From: Lentibacillus amyloliquefaciens
GTDB lineage: Bacteria > Bacillota > Bacilli > Bacillales > Amphibacillaceae
Assembly: GCF_001307805.1 (NCBI RefSeq)
Contig: NZ_CP013862.1
Span: 1,984,001-2,048,000 of the forward strand
Length of the DNA stretch: 64,000 bases
Direction of reading: 5' to 3'
Shown here: one piece after another, positions 1 through 6,024 of the stretch
Layout of the letters: each line of letters begins with the position of its first letter
How positions within the stretch are numbered: position 1 is the first letter of the stretch
Made by a program: the position numbers and the translations under genes
Notes under the pieces: generated by a model
Database searches by the model: none
What the model was told of the DNA's origin: nothing
Seen by the model: the letters and a program-made list of their open reading frames with translations, nothing else

Positions 1-932
1 CACCGCTTACTTCTATTAAAGTATTTGAATTAATGGAAGAAGCCGGTGTTCCGGCAGGCGTTGTCAATCTGGTGCTCGGTCCCGGCAATTCCGTTGGTGC
101 GGAACTTTCAGTTAATGATGATGTCGATCTGATTTCATTCACAGGCGGTATTGAAACAGGCAAGCGGATTATGCAGGCAGCCAGTTCCAATGTGAAAAAT
201 CTGGCACTCGAACTGGGCGGTAAAAATCCGAATATCGTTTTTGCCGATGCTGATTTCGAAACAGCTGTCGACCAGGCGATGAACGCGGTGTTCTTCCATG
301 CCGGACAAATTTGTTCAGCGGGCACCCGTTTGATTATTGAAGAAAGCATTCACGATGATTTTGTCAGTGCGCTTGTCGACCGTGTAAAGAATATCAAGCT
401 TGGCAGCGGTTTTGACGAATCAACTCAAATGGGACCGCTCATTTCAAAAGACCATTTAAATAAAGTTATTCAATACGTGGAGAACGGTAAAAAAGAAGGC
501 GCAACGGTTGCTGTCGGCGGCAGGCGTCCGGAAGATCCGGAACTGCAAAATGGCTTTTTCTACCTGCCGACAGTGTTGACTGACTGTACGACTGACATGG
601 GCGTTGTGCAGGATGAAGGCTTCGGTCCGGTTATTACCGTGGAAAAATTCACGACTGAAGAAGAAGCGGTTCGTCTTGCCAACGACTCCATTTATGGGCT
701 TTCCGGCGGTGTCTTTACAAATGATATTGCCAAGGCTGAGCGCTGTGTAGCGAAAATGCGGATGGGAACTGTCTGGATCAACGACGTAAATCTGTACTTC
801 CCGCATGCGCCATGGGGTGGCTATAAACAATCCGGCATCGGCCGCGAACTCGGCAAAACAGGCCTGGAAGAATATCAGGAAACCAAGCATATTTTCCAAA
901 ACCTGAAGCCTGAACCCGTTAATTGGTTTTAA
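1..932 (+). CDS. gbsA: Betaine-aldehyde dehydrogenase, 3' part (gene enters from the left)
   Basis: NAD(P)+-dependent oxidation of betaine aldehyde to glycine betaine, the last step of osmoprotectant synthesis from choline, in the cytoplasm. The frame is open from base 3, so about the last 310 of roughly 490 residues are present. The aldehyde dehydrogenase landmarks are visible: the general-base glutamate in LALELGGKNP and the catalytic cysteine in GQICSAGTR. The run HAPWGGYKQSGIGRELG and the C-terminal EYQETKHIFQNL are typical of the betaine-aldehyde branch. It ends at a TAA just before a hairpin terminator. The partner choline dehydrogenase betA lies about 9 kb away instead of next door. 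The BADH subfamily call is strong; only the N-terminus is unseen. Confidence 0.93.
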   Translation, partial: PLTSIKVFELMEEAGVPAGVVNLVLGPGNSVGAELSVNDDVDLISFTGGIETGKRIMQAASSNVKNLALELGGKNPNIVFADADFETAVDQAMNAVFFHAGQICSAGTRLIIEESIHDDFVSALVDRVKNIKLGSGFDESTQMGPLISKDHLNKVIQYVENGKKEGATVAVGGRRPEDPELQNGFFYLPTVLTDCTTDMGVVQDEGFGPVITVEKFTTEEEAVRLANDSIYGLSGGVFTNDIAKAERCVAKMRMGTVWINDVNLYFPHAPWGGYKQSGIGRELGKTGLEEYQETKHIFQNLKPEPVNWF

Positions 933-963
933 AGCCCTACCTTGAAGAGCTATATGACTAAAG

Positions 964-995
964 AGCAGCTTGGCACGACGTCAAGTTGCTTTTTT
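964..995 (+). terminator. Rho-independent terminator of gbsA
   Basis: Nine-base stem AGCAGCTTG / CAAGTTGCT (one G-T pair) with a 9-nt loop followed directly by a T tract, 31 bases after the gbsA stop. Confidence 0.8.
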
Positions 996-1017
996 GATTG
1001 ATTGGCCGGACTGAAGA

Positions 1018-1122
1018 TGTGAACTTCGGGATTTTCCATGTGAACTTCGGGGAAATCACTGTGAACTTCGGGATTTCTGGTGTGAACTTCGGGCTTTTTG
1101 CTTCCAACTTCGGGATTTAAAT
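1018..1122 (+). repeat. Array of five 21-bp repeats (core TGTGAACTTCGGG), left of the NERD gene
   Basis: The 13-base core TGTGAACTTCGGG begins at 1018, 1039, 1060 and 1081, and a degenerate copy (TTCCAACTTCGGG) begins at 1102, an exact 21-base period. The eight bases between cores differ from unit to unit (for example ATTTTCCA, GAAATCAC, ATTTCTGG, CTTTTTGC). The array overlaps the last 22 codons of the NERD gene on the other strand. A second array of the same period and orientation lies beyond that gene's start (2172-2234). Confidence 0.85.
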
Positions 1123-2087
1123 AAATTCTCCAGATCAATCCTATATTTTCTACCACTGGTACTACCTATTTTTTCAAAGTTTTCCTTTTGAAGTATATCT
1201 TTAGCTATATAGCTGGACCCTACCCGCAAAAAATCCCGCGCCTGCCGATTATTAATATGCTCCCCCACCAGCAGAGCATAATCCATCAGCGCCTGGCGAT
1301 GAGCTGTTTTTGAAGTGCAACCGCAAAAATCACACCACCACTTCCCGCTTTTCCACTGCATTGGCACAGTCCCGCAGTCAGGACAGAGGACGCCTTTTAT
1401 TAAATCATCATAATTCACATTAAATTGATCCATTCCGCCATCTTTTTCAGGCACATGTTCATTGAGTAAATGCCAGGAAAGATCGAGCAGCTGTTGTTCA
1501 GATATACGTGGCGTTTGATGTTTATCTATAAAAGAATCGACTTTGGAAAGGACTTTATCGCGGTGCATGACGATATCTGAAATGCGTTTATCGTTGTTGA
1601 GGTTTCGCAGGTAGGTGTCATCACGGCTATAGACAACAATTTTTTCGATGGGGACAGAAGGAAGGTCATACTTGCTGAGCCAGCTCAAAAGTCTCCTATA
1701 CTGAAGATTGATTTGTTCAACGGGGTTTGTGAAGACTTCTACATTGTCGTCAATTTTCCGGTAAGTCTGTCCTAAATCGTCAAAATTTATGTTGTCATAA
1801 ATATTCTTAACCTCGATGATCAGATAGAACCAGCGGGACAGCAGCAAAAAGTCAATTTGAAAGTGCTTATACTCATCGGGAAGCCTGATGTAGTGGAAAA
1901 TCAGAAAATCATCTTCAGGCAAGAACTGCAGATGGTATCGCATAGCATTTTCGCCTTTATAACCGGAAAGTAAATTAGCGGCACGTTTACTTATTTTTTC
2001 TTTAAAGAGGTGAGAAGCTGGGATTCGCACGTCCAGCGCCTGTGCAGCGAGAATATGCCGGGGAATTTCAAGAGGCTTGATATACAA
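1056..2087 (-). CDS. NERD-domain (nuclease-related) protein with C-terminal zinc ribbon
   Basis: 343 residues. The N-terminal half is a NERD domain, a predicted PD-(D/E)XK-type nuclease fold: YKGE (Glu46), the aspartate in FQIDFLL (Asp79) and the EVKN signature (Glu92, Lys94) are all present. Residues 235-255 form a four-cysteine ribbon (CPDC...CDFC). The start is a TTG preceded by AGAAAGG about 10 bases upstream; this gives an N-terminus beginning MYIKPLEIP, as is usual for Bacillaceae NERD proteins. The last ~20 residues (KARSSHQKSRSSQ) are simply translated 21-bp repeat. The gene is single, not overlapping its neighbours, and bracketed by repeat arrays. Its substrate and role are unknown; defence or DNA processing is inference from the domain. 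Confidence 0.85.
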   Translation of the reverse strand: MYIKPLEIPRHILAAQALDVRIPASHLFKEKISKRAANLLSGYKGENAMRYHLQFLPEDDFLIFHYIRLPDEYKHFQIDFLLLSRWFYLIIEVKNIYDNINFDDLGQTYRKIDDNVEVFTNPVEQINLQYRRLLSWLSKYDLPSVPIEKIVVYSRDDTYLRNLNNDKRISDIVMHRDKVLSKVDSFIDKHQTPRISEQQLLDLSWHLLNEHVPEKDGGMDQFNVNYDDLIKGVLCPDCGTVPMQWKSGKWWCDFCGCTSKTAHRQALMDYALLVGEHINNRQARDFLRVGSSYIAKDILQKENFEKIGSTSGRKYRIDLENLFKSRSWKQKARSSHQKSRSSQ

Positions 2088-2171
2088 TAAGGCACAACCT
2101 TTCTTATTTAGTTTTAGTGTCCAATTATTATTTCGACAAATCTTTTAAAAGTCCTGCTTTTTTAGTTAATT

Positions 2172-2234
2172 TGTGAACTTTATCATTTTAATTGTGAACT
2201 TTAGCGAATTCAGTGTGAACTTGAGCCCCCACCC
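2172..2234 (+). repeat. Three-unit 21-bp repeat array (core TGTGAACTT) right of the NERD gene
   Basis: TGTGAACTT begins at 2172, 2193 and 2214, again exactly 21 bases apart and in the same orientation as the left array. The core is followed by TTA or GAG instead of CGGG. The array sits about 85 bases upstream of the NERD gene's TTG start, so it covers or borders that gene's promoter region. Confidence 0.75.
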
Positions 2235-2238
2235 ACCT

Positions 2239-2787
2239 TCACCCCCAATAATCCGGATTGGTCATCCGCATTTCCTCAACCATGTCCTCAAGGTCAGCCG
2301 GGGTAATCACATAAATCGGGGATTCAGCTTGTGTTGCTTCGTCATAAAAATAACGATTGCTGCCGGTAAATTCCTCGTCAAGCAGCATCAAACAGCCACC
2401 GCTTTTCTCGATCAGCCACTTGTTGCTTGCCCGATATTGATAAGGCCCGCTGTAGCCACCTTTATAAAGCGGCCTGTAAAAGTCAGCGGCCGCCGTCAGT
2501 TTCTCATAGATCTGCTGAATCGGCTCCGGCCAGCGTTCTTCCTGATTCTCAAATGGCGGAATGAGGGCAAGCTTCACGCCATACTGGTTCCGCAATCCAA
2601 GTGCCACTTCGCCAGCCCAAAGCTCCACACCCATTTTCCCGGAAATAAGCACCCATTCCAGACCTTCTTCAATAAAGCTGATCAGCCGCTTTTCAATTGC
2701 TGCTTTAATGATATCGATGCGTTCGTCATCATGTTTGAAGATATTAACCTCCATTGGTTTATAGCCAGTGACCGCCAACACTTTCAT
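2239..2787 (-). CDS. ypsA: YpsA-family protein (SLOG superfamily, DUF1273)
   Basis: 182 residues. MKVLAVTGYKPMEVNIF at the N-terminus, GLEWVLISGKMGVELWAGEVAL in the middle (described here by its key pieces GLEWVLISG and GVELWA) and IYVITPADLEDMVEE near the end match YpsA of B. subtilis along its length. SLOG proteins are Rossmann-like folds thought to bind nucleotide-derived ligands; YpsA has been linked to cell division in Firmicutes. The start is the ATG at 2787, nine bases after GGAGGGGAG, in preference to a GTG three codons upstream that overlaps the previous stop. It is the last gene of the TPP-riboswitch operon, only five bases after the Dph6-like gene. Family call is firm; the molecular role is not. 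Confidence 0.88.
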   Translation of the reverse strand: MKVLAVTGYKPMEVNIFKHDDERIDIIKAAIEKRLISFIEEGLEWVLISGKMGVELWAGEVALGLRNQYGVKLALIPPFENQEERWPEPIQQIYEKLTAAADFYRPLYKGGYSGPYQYRASNKWLIEKSGGCLMLLDEEFTGSNRYFYDEATQAESPIYVITPADLEDMVEEMRMTNPDYWG

Positions 2788-2792
2788 GATAT

Positions 2793-3392
2793 TCACTCCC
2801 CTCCGAAGATCGGTCCATCGTGCACGTACGTATGATATTCACCGGATTCACCCATGGGGCAAACATTCTCATATTTTAAAATATCGTCAATAAAGCTACT
2901 GTCAATTCGGCGGCCGGCCCAGCTATCGGGCAGCTTTTCCGCATCAACTTTGATGACTTCTGCCTTAAAGCCTGTATCTACAAATTCATGCAGCAATTCC
3001 AAAACTTCCGCCTGATCTCGCCATAAAGGATAAACAGGCTCAACACCAGCTTTTTGCGCCACCTGCTCACCCCAACTGCGATGTCCCTCAAGGTAAATAT
3101 CGCCAAACGCGGCCCCATCAATACCATACCGTTCCTTCATACTGCCTAACATAAAAACAAAATCATTCGTGTATGTATGAAAATCCGTCTCGATAAAATG
3201 CACCGGAATGCTAAGCCGGTCCGCCTGATTCAAAACACGCTCGCGCTTTTCATTATGGGCAACCGTATCCCCGCTCTCTTTCCAGACCGTCGTCAGCAGG
3301 CAAGCCACTTGCAGCCCCTGCTTCTGCAAATAATAAAATGCCAGGCAACTGTCCTTTCCGCCGCTGAAAGATAACGCTACTTTTTTGACCAT
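2793..3392 (-). CDS. Dph6-like ATP pyrophosphatase (adenine nucleotide alpha-hydrolase family)
   Basis: 199 residues beginning MVKKVALSFSGGKDS; SGGKDS is the PP-loop of the ATP-pyrophosphatase superfamily, and GAAFGDIYLEGHR and CPMGESGEYHTYV are the conserved regions of the diphthine-ammonia ligase-like branch. Such enzymes activate a carbonyl by adenylation before amidation. Bacteria lack diphthamide, so the bacterial substrate is not known. The start chosen has GAAGGAG ten bases upstream; a longer in-frame extension has no ribosome site. It lies between TatD (64-base gap) and ypsA (five-base gap), and so is probably co-transcribed with the thiamine-precursor transporter. Confidence 0.85.
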   Translation of the reverse strand: MVKKVALSFSGGKDSCLAFYYLQKQGLQVACLLTTVWKESGDTVAHNEKRERVLNQADRLSIPVHFIETDFHTYTNDFVFMLGSMKERYGIDGAAFGDIYLEGHRSWGEQVAQKAGVEPVYPLWRDQAEVLELLHEFVDTGFKAEVIKVDAEKLPDSWAGRRIDSSFIDDILKYENVCPMGESGEYHTYVHDGPIFGGE

Positions 3393-3456
3393 CAAACACT
3401 GCTCCTTCGAATTTAATCGTACCTTTATCGTAACACCAGGCCCTGTAAAACAACAG

Positions 3457-4242
3457 TCATATCCCATAGAAATGAATCGTGTTATCATAAAGCCGGTGAT
3501 AAACGTCCTCATCCGGTATTCCTTTTAAAACTGCTATTTCACGAGCGGACCGGTGGATCATATGAGGATGTGTCATTTTCCCTTTAAACGGGCCTTCAAA
3601 CGGCCACGGACCATCTGTTTCAACCATTATTTTATCGAGCGGAAATTGTCTGACCAACTCTCTGGTTTCTGCTTCATATAAAATATCCGGCGTCACAGAA
3701 ATGAAGTAGCCGTTGCGCATCATCCGCTGCATTGTCTTGGAATCACCTTTAAACCAATGAAAATGAGCTTTGGATAGTGAATGCTTTTCCAAAAGATCGA
3801 TCACCTCAGGCGCATCATCATAAATGGCATGGAGCGCAACCGGTTTATTCAATTCGGCAGCATTTCGTATGAATGCCTCTAAAACGTGCACATAAGCCTC
3901 CCGCTCCCGGGATGTCATCTCCCCTTCCCGCCGCAAATAATACGGCAGTCCGACTTCACCGACTGCCACAACCCTGTCGCTGTCTCGTTCAATCATCGCA
4001 AGCAAATCACCGACTTCTTCATCAGTTGGAAGCGGCTGTTCCGGATGAAAGCCAAACGCCGGTTTAACGCGATTGTCGGCATGAGCCAGCCGGATGGTCT
4101 CCTGAGCTGAAGCCAGATGATTGGAAACAGCAATCAAAGCATCTACATCGTTCGCTTCCATGTCACGAAGAATGCCGAAGCGCTCATCCGGCTTATACAT
4201 ATCAAGATGAATATGGGCATCAACAATCTTTTTAGACATCAT
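3457..4242 (-). CDS. TatD-family metal-dependent hydrolase
   Basis: 261 residues. Metal-site motifs of the TatD branch of the amidohydrolase superfamily are in order: DAHIHLD near the N-terminus, the glutamate in VAVGEVGLPYY, the histidine in KPVALHAIYD, HFHWFKGD, and the aspartate in IMVETDGPWP. TatD enzymes are typically 3'-5' exonucleases or small-molecule hydrolases. The start overlaps the end of the thiZ-like gene (GGGAG seven bases before the ATG at 4242; an adjacent ATG at 4239 is equally possible), implying translational coupling. In this context, behind a TPP riboswitch, hydrolysis of an imported formylaminopyrimidine (the job of YlmB elsewhere) is possible but is inference only. Confidence 0.88.
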   Translation of the reverse strand: MMSKKIVDAHIHLDMYKPDERFGILRDMEANDVDALIAVSNHLASAQETIRLAHADNRVKPAFGFHPEQPLPTDEEVGDLLAMIERDSDRVVAVGEVGLPYYLRREGEMTSREREAYVHVLEAFIRNAAELNKPVALHAIYDDAPEVIDLLEKHSLSKAHFHWFKGDSKTMQRMMRNGYFISVTPDILYEAETRELVRQFPLDKIMVETDGPWPFEGPFKGKMTHPHMIHRSAREIAVLKGIPDEDVYHRLYDNTIHFYGI

Positions 4243-4969
4243 TACCAAGCTCCCGGTAAATTGTTTTTTTCCATTCAAGGAATTCTGCTGTCAAAAACAG
4301 CCCCTCATCCCGTGGGCGGCTGAATGGAATCGTGAAAATTTCTTTAACGGATGCAGGCGACTGAGACAATACGATAATTCTGTCAGATAAATAAATCGCT
4401 TCTTCAATATTATGCGTAACAAACAAGATCGAGCGATGATGTCCCTGCCAGATGGACAGCAGCCATTTTTGCATCTCCAGTCGGGTAAATTCGTCCAGTG
4501 CTGAAAAAGGTTCGTCAAGGCAAATCAGCGGCTGTGGGCTCAATAGGCTTCGAATAAACGCAACACGCTGTTTCATACCGCCGGATAATTCAAACGGATA
4601 GGCATCTTCATAACCGGCGAGTCCGGCGTATTCAATCAGTTCCATCGCGCTTTCTTTATCCATTTTCCCTTGTATTTCACCGCCGAGCATGACATTTTTC
4701 AAAATACTTCGCCATGGCATTAGCGACGGCGTTTGTGGTGTGTAACTGATTGATCCGCGCTTGCCGTTAATCTTGTCACCTTCCAGCCAGATTTCACCGG
4801 CATCAGGCTCAAGGATACCTCCGATTAAATGGAATAAGGTGCTTTTCCCGCTGCCTGAAGGCCCCAGTACGGAAACAAACTCACCTTCATTTACCGTGAA
4901 ATCCACATCGGCCAACACCTGGTGGTTTCCATATGATTTGGAAATGTGCTGAATATTGAGCTCGCCCAT
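4232..4969 (-). CDS. thiZ: ABC transporter ATPase of the pyrimidine-precursor uptake system (ThiZ-like)
   Basis: 245 residues with a complete nucleotide-binding domain: Walker A GPSGSGKST, Q-loop (YTPQTPSLMPW), signature LSGGMKQR, Walker B LICLDEPFSALD and the H-loop VTHNIEEA. It belongs to the NitT/TauT-like importers and would energise the ThiX permease at the inner face of the membrane. It starts three bases after the permease stop and its own stop lies inside the start region of the TatD gene. The thiamine-precursor assignment comes from the riboswitch and the ThiY-type binding protein rather than from the ATPase itself. Confidence 0.88.
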   Translation of the reverse strand: MGELNIQHISKSYGNHQVLADVDFTVNEGEFVSVLGPSGSGKSTLFHLIGGILEPDAGEIWLEGDKINGKRGSISYTPQTPSLMPWRSILKNVMLGGEIQGKMDKESAMELIEYAGLAGYEDAYPFELSGGMKQRVAFIRSLLSPQPLICLDEPFSALDEFTRLEMQKWLLSIWQGHHRSILFVTHNIEEAIYLSDRIIVLSQSPASVKEIFTIPFSRPRDEGLFLTAEFLEWKKTIYRELGNDV

Positions 4970-4972
4970 ACG

Positions 4973-5734
4973 TCATTCATCCCCTTTCCGCTTCCACTTG
5001 ATAATCTTCTTCTCAGCCAGCATGATAAGTGCGAAAAACAGCATGCTTAAAATGATAACGAATATAATCGCTACAAAGACCCGATCTGTTCTGAAAGAGG
5101 ATGAAGCCATTGTCATATAAACGCCGATGCCATTATTTGCCCCGAGCCATTCGGATATAACAGCCCCCATCACACTATAGGTCGCTGAAATCTTCAAGCC
5201 TGAAAAAACATACGGCAACGCGCTTGGCCATTCCAATTTCCAAAACACTTGTTGTTTGCCGGCACCGGCCATTTTCATGTAGTGAAGCAGATCACGATCC
5301 GTCTGCCTGAATCCTTCAAGCGCTGAGACGGCAATCGGGAAAAAGCATACCAATGCAATAATGATAATCTTCGGCAACATGCCAAAGCCAAACCATACAA
5401 CAAGCAGCGGCGCTAGAACGATAACGGGGATATTTTGCGAAATAATTAATAGCGGATACAACGCTTCACGAAAAGAGGGAATTAAATGTAAAACTGCTGC
5501 TATAACAATCCCCGCTGAACTCCCAATCACAAATCCGATTAAAGTCAGACGCACGGTTGAGACAATATGGTGCTGATAGTTCAGCCAATCTTCAACACCT
5601 GTCTGGACAATCAATGAAGGAGCCGGGAGCAGCCATGAAGGCACTTGGAAAATACGGGTCGAAACTTCCCAGACAATGACCAAAAGGATGAGAACCAGAA
5701 CCGGTTTCCATCCTTTTTGCAGTAACTGTTTCAT
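4973..5734 (-). CDS. thiX: ABC transporter permease (ThiX-like)
   Basis: 253 residues, about six hydrophobic segments, with the inner-membrane permease EAA-type loop (DLLHYMKMAGAGKQQVFWKLEWPSALPYVF region) characteristic of the SsuC/TauC/ThiX family. It forms the membrane channel for the ThiY-bound pyrimidine. Its ATG overlaps the stop codon of the preceding 96-residue gene (TAATG), so translation is coupled. Confidence 0.88.
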   Translation of the reverse strand: MKQLLQKGWKPVLVLILLVIVWEVSTRIFQVPSWLLPAPSLIVQTGVEDWLNYQHHIVSTVRLTLIGFVIGSSAGIVIAAVLHLIPSFREALYPLLIISQNIPVIVLAPLLVVWFGFGMLPKIIIIALVCFFPIAVSALEGFRQTDRDLLHYMKMAGAGKQQVFWKLEWPSALPYVFSGLKISATYSVMGAVISEWLGANNGIGVYMTMASSSFRTDRVFVAIIFVIILSMLFFALIMLAEKKIIKWKRKGDE

Positions 5735-6024
5735 TAACGATATTTCTCCGTCAGCTTATCCATAGACGCACCGCCTTCAGTATGAAGAATTTTTACCTGG
5801 GAAATGATGCTTTCACTGCCCAGCTCCAACATACGCGCGTTCATCCTTTCAATGACAGCGAGAAGTTCGGACAGCTCGCCTTCCATAGTTGTTTCCAGCG
5901 GGTGCACCTCGTACGTCACGCCTGACTTTTCAATGACGTCAATAGCAGCATCGACATATGGAATGACATCTTCACCTTGTTTTGTTTTCGGGATGATTTG
6001 AATACTGACTAATGATTGATTCAT
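5734..6024 (-). CDS. Thiamine-binding protein of the YkoF/MTH1187 family (PF01910-like)
   Basis: 96 residues. SLVSIQIIPKT, IPYVDAAIDVIEKSG and TTMEGELSELLAVIERM are the hallmarks of the small ferredoxin-like fold family that includes MTH1187/YqgV and the halves of YkoF, which binds thiamine or its hydroxymethylpyrimidine part. It is cytoplasmic, with no signal sequence. AAGGAG precedes the ATG by nine bases. It sits between thiY and thiX in one transcript, which fits a ligand-sensing or handover role for the imported pyrimidine; that role is inferred. Confidence 0.85.
   Translation of the reverse strand: MNQSLVSIQIIPKTKQGEDVIPYVDAAIDVIEKSGVTYEVHPLETTMEGELSELLAVIERMNARMLELGSESIISQVKILHTEGGASMDKLTEKYR

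Follow-up and report, generated by a model that had tools for sequence, protein, structure and literature searches.

Introduction

Short, dispersed extragenic repeats that flank the gene of a cognate enzyme and co-diverge with it are known from the REP/RAYT systems (REPtrons), and free-standing homing endonucleases are encoded inside their presumed target. Repeats set 21 base pairs (bp) apart occur in the operators of LytTR regulators such as AgrA and ComE, which consist of 9-bp direct repeats with a 12-bp spacing. Phased arrays are also bound by plasmid centromere-binding proteins, for example, the pNOB8 protein (4rs8/5k5o). Here, a related arrangement is described in the chromosome of Lentibacillus amyloliquefaciens. 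The window, that is, the whole 64-kb stretch that was analysed (NZ_CP013862.1, positions 1,984,001 to 2,048,000), lies in a 3.86-Mb genome (G000) and contains the gene of a NERD-domain protein between two arrays of 21-bp direct repeats. This locus exemplifies a rule that extends across the gene family in spore-forming Bacillaceae. The repeats, together with a predicted recognition helix that covaries with them, point to a protein-target pair of an undescribed kind. The first-pass annotation knew of no described function for NERD genes paired with phased arrays, and a literature search, mostly at the level of abstracts and with passages of PMC4057527, likewise found no description of such a pairing.

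Association of Phased Arrays with NERD Genes

The repeated core, TGTGAACTT, occurs exactly at positions 1018, 1039, 1060, and 1081 in the left array (1018..1122, + strand) and at 2172, 2193, and 2214 in the right array (2172..2234, + strand). All copies are on the + strand at steps of exactly 21 bp, and Tandem Repeats Finder gives a period of 21 for both arrays. These seven are the only exact copies in the 64 kb, where 0.70 would be expected and the maximum of 100 shuffles was three. The five left and three right units of the first-pass annotation, in one orientation on the two sides of one NERD gene, were confirmed, with the fifth left unit (TTCCAACTT at 1102) being degenerate. The CGGG said to follow each core was found in the left array only, and the right-array units continue with TATC, TAGC, and GAGC. 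The claimed positions also hold: the open reading frame (ORF) of the NERD gene (1056..2087, − strand, 343 amino acids) extends with its 3' end into the left array, and the right array begins upstream of the gene's sigma-H-like promoter (2129..2157, − strand), at a distance of 14 bp.

The association was tested across NERD loci without reference to any core, by means of the best self-match of the flanks at lags of 20–22 and a threshold of 0.57. Arrays were found at 45 of the 48 loci of a first set (on both sides in 28) and at 37 of 40 held-out loci on at least one side, with a period of 20–22. The held-out loci had been fetched later (10 from the top of 43 entries without a locus, and 30 of the 32 entries not yet fetched). 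Among the controls, arrays were seen at 0/30 acetyltransferase loci, 0/6 loci of one NERD clade, and 1/21 loci from other NERD families. In stretches picked for holding arrays, 33 of 239 other ORFs had an array on one side, and bracketing on the two sides was seen for 19/40 held-out NERD genes vs. 1/239 of these ORFs. When every Pfam match to NERD in ten selected genomes was counted, arrays were present at 14 of 29 loci, and the rest were largely other NERD clades. Judged by the first set, orthologues that lack arrays are mostly not found. Fisher and binomial values calculated for such comparisons take no account of relatedness.

The sequence of the core varies among NERD genes. All 12 genomes of the genus encode the NERD gene, and its 14 copies at ≥54% identity carry TGTGAACTT-type arrays in 12 cases on at least one side and in seven cases on both; none of 16 more distant NERD loci does. 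Outside the genus, at least five TGTGAACTT pairs occur in 8/11 genomes with a NERD match of at least 290 bits, vs. 1/136 others. In the three exceptions, the gene has other cores beside it (G066 and G074) or the units are 22 bp long (G063). More distant NERD genes likewise have arrays, with cores that differ from gene to gene and periods that are mostly 21 or 20 bp. In a phylogeny of 92 NERD proteins, loci of like period group together (15 changes of the period label vs. a shuffled mean of 38.6). The two arrays of one gene agree in orientation in 30/30 loci with an equal period on both sides; at L118, which is outside this set, one side is apparently inverted. They also resemble each other in sequence: the left-right similarity in 25 period-21 loci is 0.647 vs. 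0.445 for permuted partners (maximum of 2000 permutations, 0.498), and the gene's own partner array ranks first in 17 of the 25. Separately, the arrays of L069, L133, L203, L088, L095, and L214 show a stronger self-match at 40 or 42 bp than at 20 or 21, which would fit an alternation of two unit types.

The NERD Protein and Its Covariation with the Core

The window protein matches NERD (PF08378) with 64 bits, against a gathering score of 22.1, over residues 41–154 (1626..1967, − strand). It combines this nuclease-like domain with a zinc ribbon (residues 232–258, 1314..1394, − strand; invariant Cys 235, 238, 252, and 255) and a C-terminal winged-helix region (residues 263–317, 1137..1301, − strand) in an AlphaFold model with a predicted local distance difference test (pLDDT) value of 90.7. 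The nuclease-fold motifs had been described as intact, and D79, E92, K94, and Q107, together with the preceding GxxG, are indeed invariant in 31 homologues. Known families offer little else. The best Pfam match is NERD, and no Y1 transposase or other transposase family is listed at E values up to 1. No NCBIfam model scored above its own cut-off, and one PHROGs family of unknown function matched across the NERD part (E 4.5e-5). Solved structures gave no match by sequence and none by Foldseek against the PDB at E 1e-3 or better, and a structure search of viral models returned three matches, the best one being named a phage NERD protein. No relatives were found in phages, plasmids, and viral contigs; in one of these scans, 121 stretches fitted a peptide pattern and none was confirmed. 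The idea that NERD genes decay often was rejected, as most of the stops seen in the alignments fall beyond the true stop codon; short frames are limited to L075 and L077 among the 14 genus copies.

The variable second base of the core is tracked by residue 293, a tyrosine in the window protein, which lies in the predicted recognition helix (residues 292–301, 1185..1214, − strand). Tyr occurs with C-C-GA in 8/8 cases and His with C-T-GA in 6/6, and column 293 ranked first of 281 for covariation with the core. This link was first noticed by eye and then ranked on the same data, so only the held-out part is independent; there, the pairs are Tyr-C in 2/2 loci and His-T in 4/4, with an anchor that already requires C-[CT]-G-A. 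Because of the association with NERD genes, the left-right and genome-wide matching, and the recognition-helix covariation, the arrays are very probably the binding sites of their NERD protein, as the first-pass annotation had offered among its readings. A LytTR-type operator was rejected, as it fits the 9 + 12 geometry only and the domain that covaries with the core has a winged-helix fold.

The Sigma-H-like Promoter

The sigma-H motif has been described as RNAGGAWWW-N10-13-RNNGAATWW (PMC8510167) and was scored over its 15 specified positions. At ≤1 mismatch, it precedes 63 of 101 genes of the array-bearing set (37/61 in the first set and 26/40 among held-out loci), compared with 0/9 array-less genes, 2/21 genes of other NERD families, and 0/60 control windows. 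The window gene's own promoter has two mismatches. Such a promoter hints at a role in stationary phase, competence, or sporulation.

Dispersal of Arrays across Genomes

The units of the window are not exclusive to its NERD gene, which corrects the first impression. G000 has nine exact in-phase core pairs, and four of these sit outside the window locus. At up to three mismatches, there are 32 pairs vs. 13 for the reversed pattern, and about 13 other places in all have in-phase pairs as judged by eye; no dispersed pair is within 10 kb of the genome's four other Pfam NERD matches. The question of whether such arrays are equally frequent beside unrelated genes therefore has a divided answer: they are dispersed near many other genes, and two-sided bracketing is nearly confined to NERD genes. 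A pair at up to one mismatch occurs in 33 of 159 family genomes (reversed control, at most two per genome), and all 12 genus genomes contain core pairs, from 1 to 83 each. An exact-pattern scan of wider genome contigs gave one match, in Microbacterium, which was taken as chance.

Two other cores were counted across genomes as well. The core of the G155 gene forms 54 pairs in G155, one in G152, and none in 157 other genomes, and that of the G066 gene forms 34 pairs in G066, 29 in G055, 13 in G090, seven in G069, and one to three in nine others. The solo arrays fetched from five species often form modules of some five units, in which the unit type is set by position. For 53 of 59 arrays, both neighbours were called and the array was outside genes; with orthologous sites counted separately, the (upstream, downstream) neighbours in AAGTTCACA orientation were (+,+) 23, (+,−) 19, (−,−) 8, and (−,+) 3 times. 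These arrays thus tend to favour positions after stop codons and to avoid divergent promoters. A transcribed repeat RNA, another of the readings suggested earlier, was dropped: window positions 1–6000 have no Rfam match at the gathering score, and only the orientation bias after stop codons is left for it. In G049 (L155:1493-2690), a 237-amino-acid frame also lies between two arrays that have a 48-bp leader in common, and the frame in G000 (L001), with nearly identical DNA, adjoins one array.

Array Turnover and Cassette Exchange

Many solo arrays are at orthologous places across species, with a different subtype or unit number, and at two inspected orthologous sites below the array criterion, single units are still present. 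The left array of the window and its G049 counterpart differ in subtype: the flanks align and four cores are in register, and every 12-mer between the cores is different (CGGG vs. TAGC type).

Two pairs of genomes are informative about larger changes. In the close species G138 and G139, there are six differences in 1076 bases between the arrays and 102 in 2659 bases of the flanks; of the informative sites, the two within the arrays group by species, and the five immediately outside them group by position. The opposite is seen between G048 and G053, where the identity is 95–98% to the left of the cassette, 53% in the left array, 56% in the right array, and 79–93% beyond, and within the gene it is 62–87%, with the minimum at the winged-helix end. 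Both patterns reflect an exchange of the cassette whose breakpoints lie at the arrays; the exchange between G048 and G053 also changed the predicted specificity.

The region upstream of sbcD varies among the 12 genomes of the genus: it contains the cassette in four cases, a same-type array alone in one, other NERD remnants in one, 20-bp arrays in two (one decayed, by eye), and nothing in four (two with a distant sbcD). The 20-bp array at the G050 site has the core of that genome's NERD gene L095, and there is no NERD gene at the site itself. As a side observation, this region (L296-L307) contains arrays of different NERD families, and its upstream neighbour varies between species. In G047, four loci have an internal deletion of the element with one and the same junction, and a fifth has the promoter side only. 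These copies were not counted as proof of transposition because most of them adjoin an unrelated 85-bp hairpin repeat, which may be what moved them. This repeat (GAAAAACTCGGCATTCGCC...GCGAATGCCGAAGC...ACTTTCTGACGTTA) is frequent in L096-L102, is often found next to arrays, and could be a mobile element in its own right.

The neighbours of the window cassette are an aldehyde dehydrogenase gene and a YpsA-family gene. By eye, the 3' end of the latter (window 2239-2796) adjoins an array-flanked NERD gene in several genera; the loci with apparently the same 3' end are L117, L118, L120, L122-L124, and L126.

Proposed Mechanism and Rival Explanations

In the best reading, with belief and doubt evenly balanced, the protein is a sigma-H-controlled, sequence-specific DNA-binding nuclease, the arrays are its cognate DNA, and array recombination spreads and homogenises them. 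The C-terminal winged helix would read the core of each unit, with residue 293 following the second base, as the covariation suggests. With a period of 20–21 bp, neighbouring sites would all face the same side of the helix, which would allow several NERD molecules to bind next to one another. Judging from the promoter, expression would depend on sigma-H as cells enter stationary phase, become competent, or start to sporulate. We infer that the protein cuts or nicks the arrays it binds, or DNA close to them, because its active-site residues are invariant and recombination occurs at arrays. Recombination with breakpoints there would then homogenise the arrays of a genome, alter unit numbers, and swap array-NERD-array cassettes between species; the patterns are seen in the comparisons above, and this mechanism is our proposal for them. 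Array-only sites may acquire or lose the NERD gene. In its working, the unit would resemble homing or REP-RAYT-like systems, with a NERD nuclease and phased direct repeats as its components, and the host may retain it for a chromosome function during the sigma-H stage. That the NERD protein itself drives the array-linked recombination is plausible, slightly on the doubtful side. A bolder version is speculative and rather unlikely as a whole. It supposes that sigma-H-timed, array-guided winged-helix NERD nucleases cut lineage-specific arrays at competence or sporulation and so drive arrays and gene within and between species, with shifts of the recognition-helix residue preceding the genome-wide replacement of arrays, as a bacterial counterpart of the PRDM9-hotspot arms race.

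Several observations weigh against this nuclease reading. No clean empty site was found in the stretches compared, and in different genera the NERD gene is often still found next to ypsA, so it is not very mobile. The covariation has exceptions at residue 293: His occurs once each with AG, TC, and GA, Tyr once with CA, Asp with three T and one C, and Asn with four T and one C. The core was readable in only 27 of the 106 loci of this test, and one other column scores equally high in each set (123; 203). Arrays and genes are also not always matched. The G066 core occurs as 13 pairs in G090, a genome that lacks any Pfam NERD match, and as 29 pairs in G055, whose five NERD genes were only partly checked for that core. 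The fetched solo arrays of G049 are mostly of the CGGG subtype, the arrays beside that genome's truncated NERD gene belong to the TAGC subtype, and the window's own two arrays differ in the same way (CGGG vs. TAGC).

An unlikely alternative is that the NERD protein is a host regulator or architectural protein that binds the arrays. Those at its own locus would autoregulate the gene, the dispersed arrays after stop codons would be insulators, terminators, or chromosome anchors at the sigma-H stage, and the nuclease fold would be structural or used on demand. However, the catalytic residues are invariant, the number of sites ranges from 1 to 83 pairs between congeners, and cassette exchange with breakpoints at the arrays is unexpected for ordinary operators. 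Improbable, too, is a system of defence or self-recognition, in which the nuclease would attack DNA with another array type or without arrays, the arrays would mark or titrate the enzyme, and swapping would reflect diversifying selection as in restriction systems; the first-pass annotation had likewise considered a defence unit, and none of the PADLOC anti-phage defence models matched a family here. The least probable explanation is that the arrays are passive repeats recombining by slippage and homologous exchange with NERD genes as passengers between them, which would suit their dispersal, their bracketing of at least one other gene (the 237-amino-acid frame of L155), and the extra G047 copies that another hairpin repeat may have moved, but not the family-wide association, the left-right matching, or the recognition-helix covariation that includes held-out loci.

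Significance and Comparison with Known Systems

With the predicted pairing of nuclease and arrays, NERD, a widespread domain of poorly known function, gains a definable DNA substrate, and NERD biochemistry thereby becomes directly testable. The recognition rule on offer, residue 293 against a core base, can be read from sequence, and a class of dispersed Bacillaceae repeats would be explained. The system may serve as a bacterial model for the concerted evolution of a DNA-binding protein and its many genomic targets. If cleavage is true, the many families with different cores would form a natural set of array-guided nucleases.

The likenesses to described systems are partial. LytTR operators share the 21-bp geometry, but here there are up to five units, dispersed and with many cores. 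Unlike the plasmid centromere-binding proteins, the NERD protein is chromosomal and has a nuclease domain and a zinc ribbon fused to it, and no partition genes were seen in the examined part of the window. REP/RAYT systems rely on a Y1 transposase and palindromes, whereas here the enzyme is a NERD (PD-(D/E)XK-like) nuclease with a winged helix and the repeats are phased direct arrays in one orientation with a period of 20–21. As with free-standing homing endonucleases, the nuclease gene lies inside its presumed target; array-only and occupied alleles of one site, which may reflect either gain or loss of the gene, and putative transfer between species add to the likeness. The NERD fold, a tandem-array target at many genomic sites, and cutting that is only presumed set the present system apart. 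Finally, in an analogy with PRDM9 and recombination hotspots, specificity and genomic targets appear to shift together, with gene conversion at the targets, although here this takes place in bacteria, without meiosis, and around a protein that itself carries a nuclease-like domain.
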